Below, in pieces: positions 3,892-17,407 of a stretch of 19,441 bases of DNA (position 1 is the first letter of the stretch; each line of letters starts with the position of its first letter). Where the stretch lies: assembly GCA_001799195.1 (NCBI GenBank), contig MGSU01000028.1, positions 1 to 19,441 on the forward strand, written 5' to 3'. Both the position numbers and the translations under genes were made by a program. The DNA comes from Deltaproteobacteria bacterium RIFOXYA12_FULL_61_11. Its GTDB lineage: Bacteria; Bdellovibrionota_F; JAHFAK01; YA12-FULL-61-11. The notes under the pieces were generated by a model. It saw only the letters and a list, made by a program, of their open reading frames with translations. It made no database searches and had not been told where the DNA came from.

Positions 3892-4737
3892 ATGGAGGAA
3901 CTCTACACCTACACCAACTACCGCAACTACCTGAGGGACTTCTACTACGAACGCAAGAAGACGCTCGAGGGGTACTCCTTCGCCCAGTTCTCCACCGAAG
4001 CCGGGATAGGGTCCCCGAACTACCTCAAGTTGGTGATGGACGGAAAGCGTAACCTCTCGCAGAAGTCCATCGGCAACTTCGCACGTGGCCTCGGACTGAC
4101 CCCGGGCAAGGCCAGGTATTTTGAGTACCTGGTCCTCTTCAACCAGGCGGCCGACGAAGACGAGAGGACTACCTATTTCCGCAAGATGCGGATGGTGAAG
4201 CTGAAGAACCGGCGAGAACGTAATCTCACCGATTACGAGTACGAGTTCCTCTCCAAGCTGCACTACAATGCGGTGTACGAGCTGGTCCTGCTCACCGACT
4301 TCCGGCCCGATCCGGCGTGGATCACGCAGCGCCTCGGCGGTCTGCTCTCGGAAGACGAGGCCAAGCGCACCCTGGACAACCTCCAGCGCCTGGGCTTCCT
4401 GCGCGAGAAGAACGAGCGGCTGGTCCAGTCCTTCCGAAAACTCCAGACCCCGGACGAAGAGATCAATCTTGCTCTGCGCTCCTTCCACAAGAAGGTCATG
4501 GAGCTCGGCATGGCGGCCTTGAACCAACCCCTCGACGAGCGGGAGTTCAGGGGGTTGACCATCGCGGTGAACCGCGACCGGTTGCCCCAGATCAAGGAAC
4601 GGCTCAAGCGTTTCGTCAAGGAACTCAACGACGAACTGTCCCAGGAGCGCGCGCCGGACAGCGTCTATCAGCTCGGTTTGCAGTTCATACCCCTGACGAG
4701 GTCTCTCCCTCCGCCGGTGCTGCCCAAGAAGAGTTGA
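3892..4737 (+). CDS. TIGR02147 family protein (probable DNA-binding regulator)
   Basis: A 281-residue soluble protein. The N-terminal 95 residues carry the TIGR02147 signature: a YRNYLRDFYYERK opening (10-22), a helix-turn-helix-like segment around SPNYLKLVMDGKRNLS (41-56) and RYFEYLVLFNQA (75-86). The C-terminal part is helical and acidic/basic, resembling the DUF4423 region of this family. The family is prominent in Fibrobacter, Bdellovibrio and deltaproteobacteria, often in many copies per genome, and its biochemical role is not established; DNA binding is inferred from the N-terminal HTH-like pattern. A GGAGG at 3881-3885 sits six bases before the ATG. The gene follows the CNNM-type gene by 20 bases and precedes the sdh promoter by about 20 bases, so it could regulate either neighbour, but nothing in the sequence proves that. 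Confidence 0.85.
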   Translation: MEELYTYTNYRNYLRDFYYERKKTLEGYSFAQFSTEAGIGSPNYLKLVMDGKRNLSQKSIGNFARGLGLTPGKARYFEYLVLFNQAADEDERTTYFRKMRMVKLKNRRERNLTDYEYEFLSKLHYNAVYELVLLTDFRPDPAWITQRLGGLLSEDEAKRTLDNLQRLGFLREKNERLVQSFRKLQTPDEEINLALRSFHKKVMELGMAALNQPLDEREFRGLTIAVNRDRLPQIKERLKRFVKELNDELSQERAPDSVYQLGLQFIPLTRSLPPPVLPKKS

Positions 4738-4756
4738 AGCCCTCCCTTGAAGCGTC

Positions 4757-4785
4757 TTGCACCCTCGGTCCGCGTGTGCTAGGTG
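4757..4785 (+). promoter_or_regulatory. Candidate sigma70-type promoter of sdhCAB
   Basis: TTGCAC (4757-4762), a 17-base spacer and TAGGTG (4780-4785), with TG one base before the -10 (extended -10). It lies in the 98-base gap before sdhC and would give a leader of roughly 45 bases. The same arrangement, with a TAG-beginning -10, recurs upstream of four other genes in the window. Confidence 0.45.
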
Positions 4786-4835
4786 GAGAGCCTTACGACC
4801 TTCTCCCCACACCTTGTCCCAGAGGTGGTCAGCCT

Positions 4836-5504
4836 ATGTGGTTCCTCCAATTCTTCTCGTCCTCGATCGGCAAGAAGTTCGTCATGGCCCTCACCGGGGT
4901 GATGATGCTCTCGTTCCTCGCCGTGCACCTCGGGGGCAATCTGTTGCTCTTCGCGGGCGCCGAGGCCTATAATTCTTATTCCCACACCCTGCTCGGCCTG
5001 CCGTTCATCGTCCCCGTGGAAGTGCTCTTCCTGGCTGTCTTTCTCCTGCACCTGGGTCTTGCGCTGACCCTCACCCAAGAGAACCGTCGCGCCCGACCGG
5101 TGCCCTACCAGGTACGACAGAACCAGGGGAAACCCAGCCGACGAACCCTCGCCTCCCAGAGCATGATCTACAGCGGTGCCCTGATCTTCTCTTTTGTTGC
5201 CCTACACGTCGCCACCATGAAATACGGCCCCGAGCGTCCCTTCGGGACTACCGCAATGCGCGATGTGCACGGCTTGGTCCACGAGACCTTCTCCAATCCG
5301 CTCTTTGCCGGGGCCTATATCGTAGCCATGTTGGTGCTCGGGGTACACCTCAGCCACGCCTTCGAGAGCGCCCTGCAGACCTTGGGTCTCGAACACCCTC
5401 GGTACAACGGTATCCTCCAGGCGCTGACCAAGGGCTTCACCGTGATCGTGACCATCGGGTTCTCCCTGTTGCCGGTGTGGTCTTTCGTCCTCGGAGGGAG
5501 GTGA
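4836..5504 (+). CDS. sdhC: Succinate dehydrogenase cytochrome b558 subunit SdhC
   Basis: A 222-residue di-heme membrane anchor of the single-subunit b558 type (type B succinate:quinone oxidoreductases such as Bacillus SdhC and Wolinella FrdC). It carries electrons between SdhB and the membrane quinone pool, typically menaquinone. Five hydrophobic helices are visible. One histidine lies in each of four helices, H31, H72, H124 and H171, spaced much as the axial ligands of Bacillus SdhC (28, 70, 113, 155), so two b hemes are expected. The ATG at 4836 was chosen because it follows AGAGGTGG (4821-4828) and begins the conserved N-terminus; the same frame stays open upstream through the TIGR02147 gene, but that translation is antisense-like junk. 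The stop overlaps the ribosome-binding site of sdhA, which starts three bases later. Confidence 0.93.
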   Translation: MWFLQFFSSSIGKKFVMALTGVMMLSFLAVHLGGNLLLFAGAEAYNSYSHTLLGLPFIVPVEVLFLAVFLLHLGLALTLTQENRRARPVPYQVRQNQGKPSRRTLASQSMIYSGALIFSFVALHVATMKYGPERPFGTTAMRDVHGLVHETFSNPLFAGAYIVAMLVLGVHLSHAFESALQTLGLEHPRYNGILQALTKGFTVIVTIGFSLLPVWSFVLGGR

Positions 5505-5507
5505 GCG

Positions 5508-7418
5508 ATGCTCGACGCCAGAATACCCGCGGGGCCTCTCGAGGCGAAATGGGACAAGCGCATCCTCGAGGGAAAACTGGTCAACCCGGCCAACCGTAGA
5601 CGGTATCATGTCCTCGTGATCGGCACCGGCCTCGCAGGGGCCTCGGCCGCCGCTACTTTATCCGAACTCGGTTACAAGGTCACGGCCTTCTGCCTCCAGG
5701 ACAGCCCCCGACGCGCCCACAGCATCGCGGCGCAGGGCGGGATCAACGCGGCCAAGAACTATCCCAATGACGGCGACAGCATCCGCCGGCTGTTCCACGA
5801 TACCATCAAGGGCGGGGACTTCCGGGCCCGTGAGGCCAACGTCTATCGCTTGGCCCAAGTCAGCAACCACATTATCGACCACTGTGTCGCCCAGGGGGTT
5901 CCCTTCGCCCGGGACTATGCCGGCCTGCTCGACAACCGATCCTTCGGCGGAGCCCAGGTGTCCCGGACCTTCTATGCCCGGGGTCAGACTGGCCAGCAAC
6001 TCCTGCTCGGCGCGTATGCGGCGTTGATGAAGGAACGGGCCGTCGGCAACGTGACCGTCTTGCCGCGGCGCGAGATGCTCGACTTGGTCGTGGTCGAGGG
6101 CCGGGCTCGCGGTGTGGTGATTCGCAACCTGCTGGACGGGAAGCTGGAACGGTATGCAGGCGATGCTGTGCTCTTGGCCACCGGGGGGTATGGCAACACC
6201 TTCTTCCTCTCTACGAACGCTTGGAGTTGCAACGTCACCGCGGCGTATCGTTGTTATCGCCGCGGAGCCTGGTTCGCCAATCCCTGCTTCACTCAGATCC
6301 ATCCGACCTGCATCCCGGTCAGCGGAGAACACCAGTCCAAGCTGACTCTGATGAGCGAGAGCCTGCGCAACGACGCCCGGGTCTGGGTACCCAAACGCAA
6401 GGGCGACAAACGGCCACCTTCCGCTGTCCCCGAGGACGAGCGCGACTATTTCCTCGAGCGCCGCTACCCGAGCTTCGGCAACCTCGTCCCGCGCGACGTG
6501 GCCTCCCGCGCGGCCAAGGAGGTCTGTGACCAGGGTCTGGGGGTCGGAACCTCCGGCCTGGCCGTATACCTGGACTTCTCCGAGGCCATCCACCGGTTGG
6601 GCGAGGAGGCGGTAAGAGCCCGGTACGGCAACCTCTTCCACATGTACCACAAGATCACCGACGAAGATCCCTACCATACGCCCATGCGCATCTTCCCAGC
6701 CATCCACTACACCATGGGTGGGTTGTGGGTGGATTATGACCTGATGACCACGATACCCGGGTTGTTCGCCCTGGGGGAATGCAATTTCTCGGACCACGGG
6801 GCCAATCGCCTCGGTGCCAGTGCGCTGATGCAAGGCTTGGCCGACGGCTATTTCATTCTTCCTGCGACCTTGCCCTCCTATCTCGCCGGTTTGACCCCGG
6901 CGGCCGTCTCGACCGACCACCCGGCCTTCGCCGAAGCCGAGGTCGAGGTCAACCGCCGGCTCACCCGGCTCCTGTCCCTCAACGGTACTCGGGGCCCTCG
7001 CTCCTTCCACCGAGAACTCGGGCTCCTGTTGTGGGACAAAGTAGGTATGGCCCGCGAGCGTGGCGGTCTGGAAAAGGCCCTGCAGAGGCTTCCCGAGTTG
7101 CGTGCTCGGTTCTGGGAGGACCTACGGCTTGCCGGAGATTTGCACCAGCTCAACCAAAGTCTGGAATACGCCGGTCGCGTCGCCGACTACCTCGAATTCG
7201 CCGAGCTGATCACCCGTGACGCCCTGACCCGCGAGGAATCCTGCGGTTGTCACCTGCGGCTGGAGCACCAGACCGAGGAACACGAGGCCAGGCGCGACGA
7301 CGCCCACTTCAGCCATGTCGCCGTCTGGGAACACCGAGGACAGGAGGAGCCTCCCTTGCGGCACGAAGAATCCCTGGTCTTCGAGCACGTCACCCTCAGT
7401 CAGCGGAGTTACAAGTGA
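5508..7418 (+). CDS. sdhA: Succinate dehydrogenase flavoprotein subunit SdhA
   Basis: A 636-residue catalytic subunit that oxidises succinate to fumarate (or the reverse) on covalently bound FAD at the cytoplasmic membrane face. Visible landmarks: the FAD dinucleotide-binding motif [10 protein letters not shown] (39-48); H71 in [10 protein letters not shown], the histidine that binds FAD covalently; H265 in IHPTCIP and R434 in GANRLGAS, both in the substrate region; and the [11 protein letters not shown] segment just before R434. The N-terminus ([14 protein letters not shown]) and overall length fit the TIGR01811-type SdhA of Bacteroidetes, deltaproteobacteria and relatives rather than the E. 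coli type. The ATG follows GGAGGGAGG (5493-5501), which lies inside the end of sdhC, and the stop overlaps the sdhB start, so the three genes are translated as one coupled unit. Confidence 0.96.
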
Positions 7419-8167
7419 AGGACAACCTCATCCTCAATCTCAAGATCTGGCGGCAGAAGGATCGCGCTACTCCCGGGAGCTTCGTGACCTATACGGTCGA
7501 GAATGTGTCGCCCGACAGCTCCTTCCTCGAGATGCTCGATCTGCTCAACGAGAATCTGCTCACCCGCGGCGAGAATCCGGTGGCCTTCGACCACGACTGC
7601 CGCGAGGGGATCTGCGGGATGTGTAGCTTGGTCATCAACGGAATTCCGCACGGGTATGAGACCGGCACCACGACCTGTCAGCTCCACATGCGCAAGTTCC
7701 AGAGCGGCGACACCATCGTCATCGAACCCTGGCGGGCCAAGGCCTTCCCGGTCTTGAAAGACCTGATCGTCGACCGTTCCGCCCTCGACCGGATCATCCA
7801 GAGCGGCGGTTTCATCTCGGTCAAAACCGGTTCGGCCCCGGAGGCCAATTCCCAGCCCCTTCCCAAGGAACTCGCCGACCAAGCCTTTGCCGCGGCAGCC
7901 TGTATAGGATGCGGGGCGTGTGTCGCGGCCTGCACGAACGCGAGCGCCATGCTCTTCGTGGCCGCGAAACTCGGACACCTCTCGCGCTTGCCCCAGGGAA
8001 GGGCCGAACGCCACAAGCGCGTCCTCTCCATGATCAAGGCCATGGACGCCGAGGGTTTCGGCAACTGCACGAACGAGGGGGAGTGCGAAGCGGTCTGTCC
8101 CAAGGAGATCAATCTCGCCGAGATCGCCAGGTTGAACCGCGCCTTTCTGCTCGCTAACTTGGCGTGA
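7415..8167 (+). CDS. sdhB: Succinate dehydrogenase iron-sulfur subunit SdhB
   Basis: A 250-residue electron-transfer subunit. It has all ligands for three clusters: [2Fe-2S] C62, C67, C70 and C88 (CREGICGMC); [4Fe-4S] C163, C166, C169 and C228; and [3Fe-4S] C173, C218 and C224. I place the start at GTG 7415, which overlaps the sdhA stop (GTGA) and follows AGCGGAG at 7402-7408. This gives an N-terminus [13 protein letters not shown] typical of the family. The frame is open further upstream to an ATG at 7247, but those residues overlap the conserved SdhA C-terminus and do not look like SdhB. The enzyme should link the TCA cycle to the quinone pool together with SdhC and SdhA. Confidence 0.95.
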
Positions 8168-8347
8168 CCATCGTCGGCGTGCTTCACCGACCCGAATCGC
8201 TTTGGCGAATCCCGGGTTTCACCTGCAAGAATAACAATACGTAACGGCGGGAACAGAACCTGCTCGGAGCAGAGCCGCACCAGTTCCCGCGCTCTCGAGG
8301 CGCAGGAGGGTGTAGCCAATGCAACCCCTCTACCAAGGAGGTAGCCG
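8168..8347 (+). other. Intergenic leader between sdhB and the lamin-tail lipoprotein gene
   Basis: A 180-base non-coding gap. It has no convincing intrinsic terminator (no hairpin followed by a T run) and no clear -35/-10 pair. It does contain a nested hairpin (8247-8290) and a near-duplicate of the start region of the next gene (8312-8323 and 8341-8352), listed separately. A long structured mRNA leader is possible. Confidence 0.5.
8247..8290 (+). promoter_or_regulatory. Nested hairpin in the leader of the lamin-tail lipoprotein gene
   Basis: GCGGGAAC (8247-8254) pairs perfectly with GTTCCCGC (8283-8290). Inside the loop, CTGCT (8260-8264) pairs with AGCAG (8268-8272) around a CGG loop. No T run follows, so this is not a standard terminator. 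It could be a leader structure or a regulator-binding site; I could not match it to a known riboswitch family. Confidence 0.4.
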
Positions 8348-9523
8348 ATGCATCGCATCCTGTTGTTCCTTCCCTTCCTCTGCTGTTGTTCTCCCGAACT
8401 CGAACCCGGGGCCTACGGCAAGCTCGAACTCAAGTTGTTGGGCAGTGCGGCCGAGGTCCATCACCTCGAGGTGAGCCTCCAGGGCCCCGGAATCACCGAT
8501 CCCATGACCGCACAGATGAGTCTCTCGCAACGCCAGGCCAGTCTCTACTTCCACGGCGTGCCGGCCGGGATCGACCGGGTGATCGAGGTGACGTGCCGCG
8601 ACGCGACGGGGCAAGCAATCTGTACCCTGAGGCGCGAAGGGGTGACCATCGAAGCAGGACAGACGACCGAGCTTGCCATGGTCCTTGCCCTCGATAGCGG
8701 GAGCGCCGAGCTCGGCGCCTTCGACGCGACCCTCGTCTTCAACCATCCTCCGAGCATCAGTCGGGTCACCGTGACTCCCTCGTCCCCTGATCCCGGCCAG
8801 GAGATACTGTGCGAGATTGTGGCTACGGACGAGGACGGGGATGCGCTCGAGTACCAATGGAGCGCCACGGCGGGGACCTTCACCCAGCCCGGGGAGTCCA
8901 CGACCGGTCTGACCGTGACCGAGCCCGGCGAAGTAACCCTCACGGTCCTGGTCAGCGACGGACTCACCCCGGTCTCCATGACCTTGGTCGTCGAGGTTGG
9001 CGGCACGGCCGGAAGTGCAAGTGGAGCAGGGACCTACCAGGTAGTTCTAAACGAACTCTTGGCCGACCCGCCGGACGATATCCTTGGGGATGCCAATGCC
9101 GATGGTGTGCGGGACCTCAACGCGGATGAGTTCGTGGAACTGGTCAACGCCGGGACCTCGGAGGTCGATCTCTCGGGATGGACCCTGGCGGACAGTACTG
9201 ATCCCCGGCATGTCTTTCCGCAAGGGACTATGCTCGCGCCGAGCGCCGTGTTGGTCGTCTTCGGCGGAGGTGCGCCGACCCTGCCGATCGCCTGGCAGGT
9301 TGCTTCCAGTGGGGGGCTCGGCCTGAACAACAGCGGGGATACCCTCACCCTCTGCGATCAGAGCGGCACTCCGGTGACGAGCGTGACCTATGGAGGCGAG
9401 GGTGGTTACAATCAGTCCTTATCCCGCTCGCCGGACCTGAGCGGGGAGTTCGTCAAGCACAGCACGGTGTCGGCGTCGCTCTTCTCCCCGGGTTATCGGC
9501 TCGACGGGAGTCCCTTCAACTGA
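8348..9523 (+). CDS. Outer-surface lipoprotein with Ig/PKD-like and lamin-tail (LTD) domains
   Basis: A 391-residue exported protein. The short hydrophobic N-terminus (residues 3-11) runs into three cysteines, C12-C14, so a lipoprotein signal is likely although the lipobox is not classic. Residues 20-130 form an unassigned beta-rich region, 135-217 an Ig/PKD-like sandwich (DEDGDALEYQWSATAG) and 231-360 a lamin-tail domain (VVLNELLAD, then EFVELVN, then LSGWTLADS). A dockerin-like acidic loop, DANADGVRDLNADE (248-261), precedes the LTD core and probably binds calcium. Bacterial LTD proteins are usually secreted or surface-bound and often accompany nucleases or adhesins; no enzyme domain is visible here. 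The start follows AAGGAGG at 8335-8341. The 3' end overlaps the convergent coaE by 31 bases. Confidence 0.85.
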   Translation: MHRILLFLPFLCCCSPELEPGAYGKLELKLLGSAAEVHHLEVSLQGPGITDPMTAQMSLSQRQASLYFHGVPAGIDRVIEVTCRDATGQAICTLRREGVTIEAGQTTELAMVLALDSGSAELGAFDATLVFNHPPSISRVTVTPSSPDPGQEILCEIVATDEDGDALEYQWSATAGTFTQPGESTTGLTVTEPGEVTLTVLVSDGLTPVSMTLVVEVGGTAGSASGAGTYQVVLNELLADPPDDILGDANADGVRDLNADEFVELVNAGTSEVDLSGWTLADSTDPRHVFPQGTMLAPSAVLVVFGGGAPTLPIAWQVASSGGLGLNNSGDTLTLCDQSGTPVTSVTYGGEGGYNQSLSRSPDLSGEFVKHSTVSASLFSPGYRLDGSPFN

Positions 9524-10107
9524 GCGATAAGTCTCTCGACCTGAACCGCGGTCTCCTCCGGAGAACCTCCATTGTCCACTCTCAGATCGGCCAGGGCTGC
9601 CTTGGCCGACACGTCCATCTGTGCCGCGATCCGCAGACGCGCCTGTTCAGGGTCCAAGCCGTCGCGCAGGCACAGCCGTTCGAGCTGGACGTCTGCCGGC
9701 ACCGTCACCACGATCAGCAGGTCACGTTGCGGCAGGAGGTCGTTCTCGAGGAGCAGGGCCCCCTCGGCAATGACCACCCCGGGTGGTGCAGCTCCGAGTT
9801 CGTGGGTGATGCGATCGCGCAAGGCCGGCACGAGCAAGGAGTCGAGAGTCCTCCTGGCCTGAGGTGAAGCGAAGACGATGCGTCCGAGCGCGCTGCGGTC
9901 GATCGTGCCGTCCGGGGCGACGATGCGCTCTCCGAAGGCCTCTCTCAGGAGACGATGAGGTTCACTCTCCGGCACATAGAGGCTATGTGCAAGACGATCG
10001 AGCTCGAGCACGGTGAAACCAGCAGCGCGGAGTTGCGAGGCGACGCTGCTCTTGCCGCAGGCGATCCCCCCGGTCAATCCGACGCGGAAGTGCCGGTCGG
10101 TGGCCAT
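9493..10107 (-). CDS. coaE: Dephospho-CoA kinase CoaE
   Basis: A 204-residue enzyme for the last step of coenzyme A synthesis: ATP-dependent phosphorylation of the 3'-hydroxyl of dephospho-CoA. It has the P-loop GGIACGKS (13-20), the ELDRLAH segment that follows (dephospho-CoA side), IAEGALLLEN in the middle, and the family C-terminal pattern RLRIAAQ followed by ADLRVDNGGS. I chose the ATG at 10107 because the P-loop then lies at the usual distance from the start; an upstream in-frame ATG at 10167 would add 20 residues that overlap speD. The ATG lies five bases after the speD stop, without a strong ribosome-binding site, so translation is probably coupled to speD. In many proteobacteria coaE instead sits near pilD or zapD. 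Confidence 0.93.
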   Translation of the reverse strand: MATDRHFRVGLTGGIACGKSSVASQLRAAGFTVLELDRLAHSLYVPESEPHRLLREAFGERIVAPDGTIDRSALGRIVFASPQARRTLDSLLVPALRDRITHELGAAPPGVVIAEGALLLENDLLPQRDLLIVVTVPADVQLERLCLRDGLDPEQARLRIAAQMDVSAKAALADLRVDNGGSPEETAVQVERLIAQLKGLPSSR

Positions 10108-10111
10108 GGAT

Positions 10112-10582
10112 TCAGCAGCAGGCGGCCTGATGGAGGAAGCCGTCGGGGTGGAGGATGTGGCTGGCACAGTCGTCGTTCAGGTGACAGTTCCGCACTGCCT
10201 CGGGCTCGCTGGTTTCAAGTTCATTATTGAATTCGTTGAAGATCCCGCGTTTGATTTTGTAAATAAAGGACTTGGTCGGTTTGAAGGCGTTCGCCACGAA
10301 TTCCATGGCGATTTCGGCGAGCTCGAAGTGCCCACAGGTAAAGATGTCCACGGCCGCGTAGTTGCGTTCGGGCCAGGTATGGATGGAGAGGTGGGATTCG
10401 GCTATCACCAGGAAACCGCTGATGCCGTGGGGATTGAAGAGATTGAATTTCTCGCTGACGATATGGGCCTGGGCTTGTCTTGCCGCTTCCAGCAGCGTGG
10501 TGCGCACGAAATCGACGTCATCGAGGAGTTCGGCAGGACAACCGGCCAGCTCCAACAGGTAGTGGACCCCGAGCGTTTTCAT
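10112..10582 (-). CDS. speD: S-adenosylmethionine decarboxylase proenzyme, class 1B (SpeD/SpeH)
   Basis: A 156-residue proenzyme that self-cleaves to form a pyruvoyl cofactor and decarboxylates AdoMet, supplying aminopropyl groups for spermidine. The ESHLSIHTWPE segment places the cleavage at E62-S63; H68 and C83 (FTCG) are the other catalytic residues. S63, H68 and C83 have the same numbering as in the Thermotoga maritima enzyme, which strongly supports the ATG at 10582. In-frame upstream starts (10594, 10669) would break that match. GGGGGTT lies just before the ATG. Unusual is a C-terminal extension of about 25 residues with C133, H134, C139, H142, H145, H151, C155 and C156, absent from the roughly 130-residue thermophile enzyme. 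No spermidine synthase gene is nearby. The gene leads coaE, four bases downstream. Confidence 0.93.
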   Translation of the reverse strand: MKTLGVHYLLELAGCPAELLDDVDFVRTTLLEAARQAQAHIVSEKFNLFNPHGISGFLVIAESHLSIHTWPERNYAAVDIFTCGHFELAEIAMEFVANAFKPTKSFIYKIKRGIFNEFNNELETSEPEAVRNCHLNDDCASHILHPDGFLHQAACC

Positions 10583-11931: not shown

Positions 11932-12115
11932 GCATTATTGCAACGCAGCGCATTACCTACGATCGCCCCATCGCAACTGTTACCCGCTGATATTCTGATG
12001 GAAAGTTACATTGCTATTGTCTACTGCTGAGCAATTGCACTTTTTCTTTGACATGCTGCGTAATTCATGATAGAGGTGAACAAGCTGGAAGGTCACCCCA
12101 TTTCGAGGAGGATAT
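11932..12115 (+). other. Gap between mdh and the hendecad-repeat gene
   Basis: 184 bases, more A+T-rich than the genes. A weak candidate terminator for mdh is ATTGCT (12010-12015) pairing with AGCAAT (12030-12035), followed by TTTTTCTTT at 12041-12049; the stem is only six A+T-leaning base pairs with a 14-base loop. The promoter candidate at 12048-12076 lies immediately after. Confidence 0.35.
12048..12076 (+). promoter_or_regulatory. Candidate promoter of the hendecad-repeat gene
   Basis: A perfect TTGACA (12048-12053), a 17-base spacer and TAGAGG (12071-12076). The -10 is weak by the E. coli consensus but begins with TAG like the other candidates here. The leader would be about 30 bases. 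Confidence 0.4.
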
Positions 12116-13093
12116 ATGGTTCGGCTACTCGGCATCGGCATTCTCGGCTTGTTGCTTGCCCTACCGTGTGCGGCTACCTATGAAGATGCCGGCAAACTCC
12201 TCGCCATGACCGGCGTCGGTCCGACCGGCGAGGAGGCCAATCCCATGGGCTCCATCACCATCACCAACAGTGCTGATCTTGCCAAGAAGATCCTCCAACC
12301 GGTCAATGGTTCCGAGGACGACGAGATCATCAAGACCAGCGAAGTCATCATCATGGGGACGGGGAAGGCCGCAGAAGGACTCCTGACCATGCTCAAGGAG
12401 ATCGGGGTCAGCGCGGTCCGCACCATTGGTGGGGTCGTCCTCATCGTCGGTGAGAGCGCAATCGCCATCCTCGAGGAACTCTACAAGACCGGTTTAGTCG
12501 CCATGAACCTGATCACCGATACGGTCAAGAACATGGTCATCCTGGGCAAGAACGCCATTGTCCACACCCTCAAGGTCGTGGGCAACCTGTTGATCACCGG
12601 CGCCATCTATGCCGCGGACATCCTGGTCAAAGCGGCCGAGGGTGTATTATGGTTGCTCAAGGGACTCTACAAGGCCGCCGGGTATGTCCTGACCGCCGCT
12701 GCCTCGGGTGCCATCCTGTTGGTGCACTATGCAGCCAAGGGGATCGTTAAGTTGGTCCAGTTCATCGAGAAGGCCGTGATGTTCGTGGTCAAGTTCACCG
12801 CCGACATGGTCGTCGGTGTGATCAAGATCGTGCTCGATGGGGTCCGGTACATGTTGGACAAGACGCGCGAAGCGATCAATGCCGTGTTCCAAAAGGTCAT
12901 CGAAAAGGAAAAAGAATTGGGAGACAAGGCGGTCGAATCGACGAAACAGACCCGTAACCGCGCCTGGGACAAACTCAAGGACGACCTCAAGAACTTCGGC
13001 AAGCCCAAGTCGCAAGAACGCAGGAACTCTCCCGAGCCGACCCCCCAACCGGATGGTGACGGTTCCATGACCATCGCCTTCGGTCAGGCCTGA
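12116..13093 (+). CDS. Exported protein of 11-residue (hendecad) amphipathic helical repeats, unrecognised
   Basis: A 325-residue protein I do not recognise. A signal peptide is clear (residues 1-20, hydrophobic core 4-16, likely cut after CAA or CAAT). Residues 21-75 are a variable polar region. From residue 85 to 271 the chain can be written as 17 consecutive 11-residue units without any insertion: AAEGLLTMLKE (85-95) and AAEGVLWLLKG (173-183) are close copies eight units apart, and AAKGIVKLVQF (206-216) is another. The pattern is sharpest from about 162 to 271: two positions per unit are polar or charged, the rest hydrophobic or small. This is the rhythm of membrane-surface helices such as synucleins, perilipins, apolipoproteins and LEA proteins, though more hydrophobic. 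The C-terminus (272-325) is basic, then Pro-rich. GAGGAGG (12105-12111) precedes the ATG. A lipid- or membrane-associated role in the periplasm or outer membrane is inference only. Confidence 0.82.
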   Translation: MVRLLGIGILGLLLALPCAATYEDAGKLLAMTGVGPTGEEANPMGSITITNSADLAKKILQPVNGSEDDEIIKTSEVIIMGTGKAAEGLLTMLKEIGVSAVRTIGGVVLIVGESAIAILEELYKTGLVAMNLITDTVKNMVILGKNAIVHTLKVVGNLLITGAIYAADILVKAAEGVLWLLKGLYKAAGYVLTAAASGAILLVHYAAKGIVKLVQFIEKAVMFVVKFTADMVVGVIKIVLDGVRYMLDKTREAINAVFQKVIEKEKELGDKAVESTKQTRNRAWDKLKDDLKNFGKPKSQERRNSPEPTPQPDGDGSMTIAFGQA

Positions 13094-13130: not shown

Positions 13131-14468
13131 TCAGAATAAGAAATACATGGTCGCCAAGAAATTGTAATAACGATCCTGTATCACCGCGTTGACGATCTCC
13201 TTGCGGAAGCCTCCGCGTACCCCCCGATTATCCACAATACCTGTGGTGCTCTGCGCTTTGTCGAAGAACACATCGAGGGTGTAGAGCCCGAAGAGGAAAT
13301 CTAAGCCCCAGGATCGATCGAAGCGCATGGTCGCCCCTGCGGTGATGAAGTGATTGAGCATGTTGGTTTTTACGGCGGTCGGGTTACCGGTGATGTAGCT
13401 GCGTTGGTTCGTCGCCTGATACAGTTGTTTGCTCTCCTCGTAGGTTGGCTGGAAGAGGATTTCCCAGCCCGCTTTGATGCCGAGATCGAAGTTGTCGTCG
13501 CCGGCGGGTAGGTACCAAATGAGGTTCACGGGTGCTAGGTTGGCCCCCATGTAGACCGCATCGAGGAAGAAGAACAGCGGGGCTCCGGGCATGGATTCGA
13601 TGTCGTTGCCATCGAACATGAACATTCGAAAACCAGCTTTTGGCATGAGACACAAGGACTTGAGATCACGAAAGGGATAGACTCGGTACACCAGGTTGGC
13701 AGAGGTGTTGTGGGTCATGGCCGTGGTCGGGATGATCTTTTCCTTCTTCAGGGTGATGGTGAGGCGATAGAAGGAGTAGAGGTACGACAGTTCCAGCCCC
13801 AGGGCATGAACGCCCCCTTGGAGGGGATATACTTCTGCGCCGAGACCGGCAGTCACCGACGGCCAGGCCTGGTACTGCACTCCGGCGTCCCCGGCATAGG
13901 GACTTTGGATGGCCTGGTTCAAGGGTGGGGTGTTTTGTTGTTTGACCTGCCGGTTCGTGTTCGAAGCGAGGCCAAAGAAGGTAGGCAGGAAACCGAGGAA
14001 GCGCGAGCGCGCGGAGTATATATTGTACTGAGTGCCGAGGGTCAGAGCGAACCGCCCGTTATCGTTCTTGAACGGTCGCACTGCCGTGATGTCAATTTCG
14101 GATTCGTAGACCTTGCGCCGTTTACCGCCCTTCTTGCTCGCCTTATTCCTGGATTCGCGATCCTCCTGCCAATCGTCGTAATCTCCCTCTTCCTCTTCCT
14201 CGTCTTCCTCTTCTTCTTCCTCGAAATCCTCTCCCTCTTCCTCTTCCTCTTCCTCTTCGTATTCTTCTTCGTCTTCTTCCCCGGGCTCTTCCTCCCAATC
14301 GCCGTCGTCTTCCTCTTCTTCCTCGTCGTCCCATTCCGAGGCACGATTGGCCAAGAGCCCTGCGTCGGTCGTAGGGGTGAGCGACGAGTCCGCTGCGACG
14401 GGACTCGTCGTGGCGAGGAACAGGAGGGCGATCATGACGCCGAGGAAGATCACTGTCGCTCGAACCAT
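13131..14468 (-). CDS. Predicted outer-membrane beta-barrel protein with poly-acidic N-terminal segment
   Basis: A 445-residue exported protein. Residues 1-26 are a signal peptide (core 5-19, likely cut after VAA). Residues 45-105 are almost entirely Glu and Asp, then a basic patch (107-119, NKASKKGGKRRK) leads into a beta-rich region (about 120-445) with alternating hydrophobic strands. It ends in YFLF, the terminal-Phe pattern recognised by the BAM assembly machinery. I chose the ATG at 14468 because the signal peptide starts there, with GTGGAG about nine bases upstream; upstream in-frame ATGs at 14498 and 14633 lack a site and the latter overlaps the next gene. The acidic segment would lie in the periplasm or outside and could bind cations. 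It follows the FlgT-like gene by 52 bases, probably in one transcript with infA. Family not recognised. Confidence 0.78.
   Translation of the reverse strand: MVRATVIFLGVMIALLFLATTSPVAADSSLTPTTDAGLLANRASEWDDEEEEEDDGDWEEEPGEEDEEEYEEEEEEEEGEDFEEEEEEDEEEEEGDYDDWQEDRESRNKASKKGGKRRKVYESEIDITAVRPFKNDNGRFALTLGTQYNIYSARSRFLGFLPTFFGLASNTNRQVKQQNTPPLNQAIQSPYAGDAGVQYQAWPSVTAGLGAEVYPLQGGVHALGLELSYLYSFYRLTITLKKEKIIPTTAMTHNTSANLVYRVYPFRDLKSLCLMPKAGFRMFMFDGNDIESMPGAPLFFFLDAVYMGANLAPVNLIWYLPAGDDNFDLGIKAGWEILFQPTYEESKQLYQATNQRSYITGNPTAVKTNMLNHFITAGATMRFDRSWGLDFLFGLYTLDVFFDKAQSTTGIVDNRGVRGGFRKEIVNAVIQDRYYNFLATMYFLF
14154..14336 (-). repeat. Low-complexity Glu/Asp-coding tract with 12-residue aromatic period
   Basis: Encodes residues 45-105 of the barrel protein. 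GAG/GAA codons alternate, giving a CTC/TTC-rich plus strand that resembles a microsatellite. Single aromatic residues interrupt the acid run at W46, W58, Y70 and F82, exactly 12 apart. Confidence 0.8.
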
Positions 14469-14520
14469 GGGCAATAACTCCACGCTCTCATCGATCATGG
14501 TACAGCGCGAGGAGGTTTTT

Positions 14521-15618
14521 TCAACTACCCCCGCTCTTCCGAGGGGGTATAACGAGGCGAAACCTTCCTTCTCCAGAGACTTGCAGGAGAAGAGGTTGCT
14601 GTTCGTACTGGAGGGTGCGGAAAAAATCGACAAACTCGACCACGCTGTCGCGAAGTACGATGTCGGCCTGCAACAACCCGGGCTGTGCGCCGACGAGTGA
14701 GAAATCGAATTTCTTGATCCCTTCGAAGGCCTTGAAGAGATAGTCGACGACCAGGAAGTCCCGGGGTTGTTCGAGCTCGAAATGCAGCACGTAGCCCTCG
14801 GTCATGAGTGTATTCCAAGCGCTCCCGAGGTTCGCGATGGTTTCGGCGCAGAAGGCGGTAAAGGCTTGGCCTTTCGAGGATGCGGCGTTGTCGAGCTTGC
14901 GTTCTTCAGTCAGGACGAGGCGGCCGTCGAGCCCGCGATAGGCAGATAGGCTGAGGTGGAGCAGGGGGGTTCGGGATGCGATCAGTGCTGTCACCCTACC
15001 GAAGATCACCAGGTCCGCTGGGTAGGTCAGGCGTAGCGGAGCGTAGTCCGGATAGGTCTGGGGCGCGCTAGCTCCCAGACTCAGGGTTCGTTCGGCGGGA
15101 AGGACTAGAAACCCTCCTCCCTCCGCAGCGGTGATGAACTGTTGTTGTGCAGGAGATGGCCGTTTTCGTTCCAGCCACCACGAGAGGGAAACCCCTGTAG
15201 AAAGATCCTTTTCTTGGATGAGGAACAGGAGCCGAGGGCGTGGGAGGTCTCGAATAGCACCGTGCTCGAGGAGCCGAGAGCGTACCTGGTCGAGGTCGAG
15301 GGAGACCAGGACCTCGAGTTCCAGGATGCTGCCCTTGCGGCGTTCGTTGAGGACCGTGTATTTGCGGACGAAGGTTCCTGCTGCGGCTTCGACGTGTTTG
15401 TGGAACAGGAGGTCGAAATCCTTATTGCCCGATACCGGACGGAACCCTTCTTGGACCTGACGGATCGCTTGTTCGAAAGCAGCTTCTATCAGACGCTGCC
15501 TGAGCCTCGAGATGTTCGATCCCTGCACATCACCGTTGAGGATCACAGTACGCTCGACCGTTTGCGCGTGATTCTGGCACACTAGCACGAGCGAGAGGAG
15601 GACGAGGAGCCTCACCAT
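14521..15618 (-). CDS. Exported protein resembling FlgT/LPP20-type periplasmic proteins
   Basis: A 365-residue protein with a signal peptide (1-18, cut near NHA/QT). Residues 20-125 have the pattern of FlgT N-terminal or LPP20-like domains: a helix with repeated Ala/Arg (RQRLIEAAFEQAIRQV), a G.FV..Y.VL strand and a final strand LEVLVSLDLDQVRSRLL. Residues 128-275 look like a TolB/LpoB-like alpha-beta domain (YPADLVIFGRVTALI), and 280-365 like a small alpha-beta C-terminal domain. FlgT supports flagellar H-ring assembly, but no flagellar gene is present here, and related folds occur in other envelope proteins, so function is open. The ATG at 15618 lies 12 bases after the infA stop with no strong ribosome-binding site, which suggests coupling to infA. 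The assignment rests on pattern resemblance and is tentative. Confidence 0.7.
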   Translation of the reverse strand: MVRLLVLLSLVLVCQNHAQTVERTVILNGDVQGSNISRLRQRLIEAAFEQAIRQVQEGFRPVSGNKDFDLLFHKHVEAAAGTFVRKYTVLNERRKGSILELEVLVSLDLDQVRSRLLEHGAIRDLPRPRLLFLIQEKDLSTGVSLSWWLERKRPSPAQQQFITAAEGGGFLVLPAERTLSLGASAPQTYPDYAPLRLTYPADLVIFGRVTALIASRTPLLHLSLSAYRGLDGRLVLTEERKLDNAASSKGQAFTAFCAETIANLGSAWNTLMTEGYVLHFELEQPRDFLVVDYLFKAFEGIKKFDFSLVGAQPGLLQADIVLRDSVVEFVDFFRTLQYEQQPLLLQVSGEGRFRLVIPPRKSGGS

Positions 15619-16060: not shown

Positions 16061-17407
16061 ATGGCCTCGACGATCAATAAAATCATCATCGGCGTGGGCG
16101 GCGGCAAGGGCGGCACGGGCAAGTCCATTGTTGCCAGCAACCTAGCCATCTCCCTGGCCATGGCGAACAAGAAGGTGATCATCGTCGACGCTGACCTTGG
16201 CGCCTCGAATCTCCACTCCCTCTTCGGCCTCGTCACCCCGCCGAAAACGCTCGATGACTTCGTCAACCGGAACGTCGAGGACCTCAACTCGGTCCTCATC
16301 GACACGGCCGTGCCGAACCTCAAGCTCATCTGCGGCGGAGTCGCCATGGTCGGGTTGGCCGACCCGACTTTCGAGCAGAAAGCCAGGCTCATCAACGGAA
16401 TCAACACGCTGGACACCGATTACCTGGTGGTGGACATCGGTGCCGGCTCCTCTCTAACGTCCGTGGACTTCTACAACAACGCCCACATCAAGATCCTGGT
16501 CTTCTCGGCCCAGCTCACCTCGTTGCAGAACGGATACGGTTTCCTCAAGACTGCGGTCTACCAGCGCATCACCCGGGCCCTGCGCCGCAAGTACGGCACC
16601 CAGGACAAACGCCTCGACAGCCTCGACGTGCTCGTCCGCAACGCCGACCAAGTCAAGAACATCCTCCAGGTCCTCGAGAAGCTCAACCCCGAGTACCGCG
16701 CCACGGTCGAACAAGAACTGAAGCATTACAACACGTTCATCATCGGCAATATGTTCCGCGAGGAGAACAGCCGCGACACCTTGCTCTCGATGCAGACGAT
16801 CATCCGGGACTACCTCAACCTGCAGGCCGATATCCTCGGCGTGCTCAGCCATCGCCAGACCATCCACGATTCGATCAACCGCATGAAACCCTTCATGCTC
16901 ACCGTCAAGAACAAGAGCGACGTCGACTACATCACCTTCCTCAACGTCGCCAAGAAAGTGCTCCATCTCAAGATCGACCTCGCTCTCTCAGGCCAGGACA
17001 ACTTCTTCCAGGCGGGGAAATACGACGAGCAGTACAAAGCGGATGCGGCCCCCGGCGCCAAACCCCCGACCGATGGCCACCTGTTACCGGACGAGTTGAT
17101 CAAGAGCATGCTCGAGGACAGCCAACGAAAGAGCACCGGTCTCGCCGCTCAACTCTTCACCGATACCCAGGTCGTGGACGTGGTCATCAAGCAGATCTCG
17201 ATGAAGGGCGTCCTGGTGCTTACGCCAAAGGGCTGGACCTACGATAAAGCCTTCGAACGCATCCGCATCTTCATCGACGGCGACGGACTCACCTTTCTGG
17301 CCAAGGCCGTGGTCGTGGACGCGAACAAGTCCTTGGTGGGCTTTCGTTTCCGCGATATCACCAGGCTCAAGACGATCGTACTCTACGAGCTCATCTCGCA
17401 ACTCTGA
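16061..17407 (+). CDS. MinD/FleN-like ParA-family ATPase with C-terminal PilZ-like domain
   Basis: A 448-residue protein. Residues 1-270 form a ParA/MinD-type P-loop ATPase: deviant Walker A KGGTGKS (16-22, signature K16 and K21), DADLGASNLHSLFG (43-56) and Walker B VVDIGAG (123-129). The NLHSLFG segment and the DIGAG motif resemble FleN/YlxH-type proteins that set polar flagellum number or position. A linker of about 60 residues (310-360) follows. The last 80 residues resemble PilZ: VVIKQISMKGVLVL (374-387), a long strand RIRIFIDGDG (400-409) and VGFRFRDI (426-433). The c-di-GMP-binding motif is degenerate (QISMKG instead of D/NxSxxG) and no RxxxR is evident, so nucleotide binding is doubtful. 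The Shine-Dalgarno is weak (GAGAA, 16051-16055). It converges on the LbH gene, 19 bases away. A polarity or envelope positioning role is inferred. Confidence 0.82.
   Translation: MASTINKIIIGVGGGKGGTGKSIVASNLAISLAMANKKVIIVDADLGASNLHSLFGLVTPPKTLDDFVNRNVEDLNSVLIDTAVPNLKLICGGVAMVGLADPTFEQKARLINGINTLDTDYLVVDIGAGSSLTSVDFYNNAHIKILVFSAQLTSLQNGYGFLKTAVYQRITRALRRKYGTQDKRLDSLDVLVRNADQVKNILQVLEKLNPEYRATVEQELKHYNTFIIGNMFREENSRDTLLSMQTIIRDYLNLQADILGVLSHRQTIHDSINRMKPFMLTVKNKSDVDYITFLNVAKKVLHLKIDLALSGQDNFFQAGKYDEQYKADAAPGAKPPTDGHLLPDELIKSMLEDSQRKSTGLAAQLFTDTQVVDVVIKQISMKGVLVLTPKGWTYDKAFERIRIFIDGDGLTFLAKAVVVDANKSLVGFRFRDITRLKTIVLYELISQL

Follow-up and report, generated by a model that had tools for sequence, protein, structure and literature searches.

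An apparently exported protein with a long, strongly hydrophobic 11/3 helix and three paralogues: a putative envelope family of one bacterial genome

Introduction

The most familiar long α-helices of 11/3 rhythm occur in eukaryotic lipid-coating proteins and in coiled coils of the cytoplasm. Perilipins, synucleins and exchangeable apolipoproteins (PMC5889406) are distinguished by a long gap-free 11/3 period and one continuous hydrophobic face of a helix that forms on lipid; natural 11-mer-repeat helices are 32-47% hydrophobic, and the hydrophobic and charged fractions listed are 0.47 and 0.24 for α-synuclein, 0.37 and 0.23 for Plin3, 0.35 and 0.15 for Plin4, and 0.40 and 0.35 for apoA-I (PMC5889406 Table 1). 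Hendecad coiled coils combine uninterrupted hendecads, hydrophobic residues at core positions and small residues, the latter being needed in hendecad dimers; FilP and Scy belong to this type (PMC9858780), and its families were surveyed by Martinez-Goikoetxea and Lupas (2023, J Struct Biol 215:108007, as cited in PMC11676326). Here, we describe a protein named W, encoded in a window of 19,441 nucleotides (the whole stretch of DNA that was analysed), which follows the rhythm of these systems and departs from both in its chemistry, and we compare it with three paralogues found in the same genome.

Results

The open reading frame of W agrees in position with the preliminary description of this DNA and represents a complete gene, preceded at a distance of 185 bp by the malate dehydrogenase gene and otherwise standing alone (Table 1). 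The signal peptide assigned earlier was borne out by inspection, paralogues having their own; from it we infer that W is exported by Sec and cut by signal peptidase I, the function of W being likewise a matter of deduction. In low-confidence models, the probable cap consists of strands ~47-50, 76-82 and 101-111 and helices ~53-60 and 84-96, and strand-like segments are discernible in the same order in the paralogues, as judged by eye and from alignments. Proline is absent from residues 63-296 (234 residues), and only 15% of residues 113-236 are charged. The peak of conservation at 181-211 coincides with the hydrophobic core of the helix, while after the signal peptide no segment of W passes as transmembrane (approximate insertion energy at least 4.3, and at least 4.5 at the conserved block).

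Table 1. Features of the W gene and its product (positions in the window; residues are those of W)
Feature	Position	Strand	Basis
Shine-Dalgarno-like AGGAGG, directly 5' of ATG	12106..12111	+	sequence
W, complete gene, exported long-helix protein, 325 aa	12116..13093	+	ORF; upstream AGGAGG; three paralogues
Signal peptide, residues 1-20, MVRLLGIGILGLLLALPCAA	12116..12175	+	inspection; paralogues also start with signal peptides
Probable signal peptidase I site CAA/TY (cleavage at the slash); no lipobox	end of W signal peptide	+	inspection
Probable N-terminal α/β cap, residues ~45-112	12248..12451	+	low-confidence models
17 in-register 11-residue units, residues 85-271	12368..12928	+	periodicity analysis
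Long helix, residues ~113-292 (180 residues, ~27 nm if straight)	12452..12991	+	models, both low-confidence; proline absence
Best-conserved block, residues 181-211, with G198 and V203; invariant K212 follows	12656..12748	+	alignment of paralogues
Highly charged continuation of long helix, residues 237-292, 45% charged	12824..12991	+	composition, rhythm
Linker, residues 293-315, basic, then proline-rich (P297, P306, P308, P310, P312)	12992..13060	+	coil in both models
Strand-like C-terminus GSMTIAFGQA, residues 316-325	13061..13090	+	inspection

The Kyte-Doolittle power of W at 11/3 (3.667 residues) reaches 279 against ~10 expected in random order; none of 2000 shuffles matched it, so the 11-residue periodicity held against shuffled sequences, and the maximum of the whole spectrum exceeded that of all 1000 shuffles out of 1000. 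The hydrophobic period amounts to 3.65-3.67 residues, the best segment being 30-296 with normalised power 36 and peak at 3.66. The rhythm is unusually steady: local phase stays within ~±32 degrees from residue 61 to ~290, and a free phase jump permitted at any position gains only 7%, i.e. the phase runs without a break. In a scan covering 2.14 Mb of the 4.64 Mb genome (~46%), W took the first rank by coherence among 1,660 non-overlapping ORFs (33.2, with 19.9 for the runner-up and 17.9 for the 99.9th percentile). Since an undistorted α-helix has 3.63 residues per turn (PMC9858780), the value of 3.65-3.66 implies a helix that is almost straight and bears a straight stripe; in its plain meaning the rhythm thus describes such a helix with a hydrophobic side and no special fold.

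Seventeen gap-free units of 11 residues do fit residues 85-271 in register, as was proposed, and within them columns a, e, h and i are strongly hydrophobic (mean KD 2.2-3.4) and almost uncharged, column b being intermediate. The word "repeats" applies to them in part: what is repeated is the hydrophobic pattern, whereas sequence copies are barely above chance. The near-copies AAEGLLTMLKE and AAEGVLWLLKG at residues 85 and 173, singled out in the preliminary description, are real (BLOSUM62 score 31), but shuffles keeping the 11-residue columns match this score 4% of the time (P=0.04). With columns kept, clear extra similarity between units was detected at lag 11 only (P=0.005), and no tandem repeat is seen in DNA of the gene.

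The same regularity permits a rather different interpretation, a periplasmic or surface hendecad coiled-coil rod, where the a/d/e/h/i stripes of several W copies would be the contact surface of a straight bundle, and caps together with strand-like C-termini would join rods either lengthwise or laterally; we regard it as possible, if somewhat doubtful. It agrees with the spacing 0, 3, 4, 7, 8 of 11, equal to that of a hendecad core (a, d, e, h, i) if the strongest columns set the phase, with hydrophobic residues at a, d, (e) and h in a helix predicted by low-confidence models, with the long proline-free stretch, and with the abundance of small residues required by hendecad dimers (PMC9858780); residues 244-293 also give a weak match, far below cut-off, to the model of F0F1 subunit B'. 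The outer face, however, is low in charge for a soluble rod (the 15% in 113-236), and two paralogues are transmembrane-like at the conserved block and have much weaker 11/3 coherence. Besides, W is far more hydrophobic outside the core than hendecad coiled coils and, unlike them, is exported; the N-terminal DivIVA domain, a feature of DivIVA, FilP and Scy, gave no Pfam match in W.

Chemical comparison with lipid-coating proteins leads to a similarly mixed outcome. Residues 85-271 have a hydrophobic fraction of 0.59 (A, I, L, M, V, F, W, Y), 20% of charged residues and mean μH of 0.31, close to 0.30 in α-synuclein; the hydrophobic fraction lies above every natural amphipathic helix in Table 1 of PMC5889406. 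The expectation that the 11/3 amphipathic helix would exceed synuclein in hydrophobicity (0.59 vs 0.47) is therefore confirmed, and for this very reason the proposed likeness to synucleins, perilipins and apolipoproteins is weakened rather than supported: beyond the rhythm, composition differs and no sequence similarity to these families was found in Pfam. W is also set apart from them by bacterial export and the probable α/β cap. The analogy with synuclein and perilipin suits the rhythm of W, not its chemistry.

Searching the own genome with W revealed L002 (contig C231, E 8.7e-7) and L003 (contig C36, E 0.009), and L002 taken as a query led to L007 (contig C133, E 2e-16). Because periodic composition can mimic similarity, homology was judged over shuffles in which no residue leaves its 11-residue column: z was ~10, ~6 and ~5 for W against L002, L003 and L007, respectively, and ~23 for the pair L002-L007, while direct comparison of L003 with L002 or L007 was not significant, so that L003 is joined only through W. 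Judged in this way, W and its three distant paralogues are a family whose similarity exceeds the common 11-residue pattern. By inspection, a signal peptide opens each of the four sequences, and a short, hydrophobic, strand-like run lies at most a few residues before each C-terminus. The plan in common is signal peptide, probable small α/β cap, long helix and strand-like C-terminus. Normalised 11/3 power is strong in W (36) and L003 (18) and weak in L002 (8) and L007 (7), the core of the latter two being more transmembrane-like and probably proline-kinked (approximate insertion energy at the conserved block 1.2 and -0.4, respectively; 2.1 for residues 161-179 of L003). L003 also gives a weak tape-measure match (E 0.67).

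The four-member profile found nothing further at E <0.2 in the own genome, which is 87% complete, so that members may be missed, and gave 0 matches in 385 other genomes; no family member came from the one other genome of the phylum searched, and homologues outside the own genome were absent from GTDB contigs, viral contigs, 59 relatives and the phylum. Nor was a credible match to the W family obtained in Pfam, NCBIfam, PHROGs, PADLOC or PDB sequences, in line with the preliminary description, which did not recognise the family. In Pfam, W hits FAM25 only (E 0.13, below cut-off), and no confident match to an ordinary multi-pass transmembrane family occurred. The best PHROGs match, thymidylate kinase (E 0.0012), covers the charged tail only and was taken as compositional. 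W and its paralogues make up a small new family, so far found in their own genome only; it is an orphan, though in kind close to the hendecad and 11-mer helices already known.

Two models of W are available, both of low confidence (pLDDT 38 and 60; pTM 0.19 and 0.25). Each places strand-helix-strand-helix-strand before residue 112 and helix from there to 292, and neither makes residues 316-325 a strand. Since strands at ~101-111 occur in both, the uninterrupted helix more likely begins at ~113-127. The single long helix that the preliminary description proposed to look for is present in the first model (113-292), whereas the second, single-sequence model divides it into 127-195 and 199-292 with a break at ~196-198. 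Foldseek retrieved no PDB or BFVD match at E <0.001. With VIA-align, the second model was paired with long extended myosin helices (Z up to 7.6; below 5 for the cap), values within the stated background of the tool, for which reason fold assignment on this ground was dropped.

The break in the second model (pTM 0.25) is the starting point for a helical hairpin with a hydrophobic tip near G198 in the membrane and arms ~127-196 and 199-292 returning the C-terminal strand to the cap, an arrangement that might serve for tethering, permeabilisation or pore formation. The break falls inside the best-conserved, glycine-containing hydrophobic block, and a hairpin would explain the strand-like segments at both ends of W and why L003 has cysteines in its two end segments (C28; C292 and C298). 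We nevertheless find this improbable: the 11/3 phase hardly shifts across the proposed turn, the other model is one continuous helix, and VIA-align pairs even the broken model with extended helices. As to pore formation, mentioned already in the preliminary description, the evidence speaks neither for nor against it.

Discussion

The best reading, to which we give even odds, is that of W as an exported envelope protein at the periplasmic face of a membrane, its helix resting on that membrane or partly sinking into it. The argument for membrane work is that conservation falls on the hydrophobic core, which in two of the paralogues is the most hydrophobic stretch of the helix and has transmembrane-like character; the conservation peak coincides with the low-insertion-energy segments of L007 and L002. 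After Sec export and processing by signal peptidase I, residues ~45-112 would form the small α/β cap, perhaps completed by the strand-like C-terminus; the helix of ~180 residues would lie along the membrane leaflet by its hydrophobic face of five positions in eleven, the conserved core would partly enter the leaflet, and the charged last third (237-292) would stay outside. The job of such a protein may be structural, that is, coating, stiffening or tethering of membrane, with paralogues specialised by site, the helix being long and straight in W and L003 and having a proline-kinked, more transmembrane-like core in L002 and L007. Against membrane location one may argue that a hendecad coiled coil needs the same pattern, so that self-assembly could bury the stripe, and that no segment of W passes as transmembrane, its models are of low confidence and no lipid-related gene lies nearby.

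Transmembrane-like segments of L007 and L002, along with basic residues following the core in paralogues, might also point to an ordinary inner-membrane protein, which would cross the membrane once or twice within 181-235 and have an extended amphipathic linker whose rhythm is incidental. We consider this very improbable: W is devoid of a clear transmembrane segment and of the favourable insertion segments typical of multi-pass proteins (the family is mixed in this respect, L007 having one), its extreme coherence is unique among the 1,660 ORFs, and no known family is matched.

Compared with the preliminary description, the three paralogues, the probable N-terminal α/β cap, the strand-like C-terminus and the conserved hydrophobic core block are new, and together they turn the interpretation away from a lipid-coating repeat standing by itself and towards an envelope protein with a cap. 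A broader proposal, that a lineage-restricted exported family covers or shapes the envelope membrane from the periplasmic side by long, strongly hydrophobic, α/β-capped 11/3 helices, we rate as unlikely; to our knowledge, there is no bacterial example of such a function performed by capped exported helices of this kind. The interest of W lies in being an exported long 11/3 helix from a poorly sampled phylum, with a hydrophobicity exceeding that of the natural amphipathic helices compared. Its paralogues grade from straight amphipathic (W, L003) to transmembrane-like (L002, L007), and may be considered as a small natural series for helices lying on, entering and spanning the membrane.

Of the homologues and neighbours whose analysis was suggested earlier, the former were found as paralogues, while the latter do not decide between functional readings. 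No gene pointing to lipids was noticed around W among neighbours read by ORFs and Pfam. Convergent to W on its 3' side, a gene at 13131-14633 (-) encodes a probable outer-membrane protein with no credible Pfam match, in which an acidic run of ~70 residues (mostly E and D) precedes a barrel-like region. Among paralogues, L007 alone has an obvious partner gene: on contig C133 (locus L038), three exported-looking genes occupy 4217-8056, 8071-9336 and 9364-10242 (+), the last being L007, which, close behind the other two, may be their operon partner. The first encodes a 1,279-aa protein with an HEFQH (HExxH metalloprotease-like) motif, the second a 421-aa protein without Pfam match, a 41% paralogue of which is located on contig C262, with no family member adjoining it within the 4.2 kb read. 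Elsewhere in the window, there are a MinD/ParA-type ATPase with a fused C-terminal PilZ-like domain (16061-17407, +; E 2e-4, just under the Pfam cut-off), an 842-aa protein with bacterial Ig-like (Big_1/invasin D3) domains starting near the contig start (181-2709, +), and a probable lipoprotein with PKD and lamin-tail domains (8348-9523, +).
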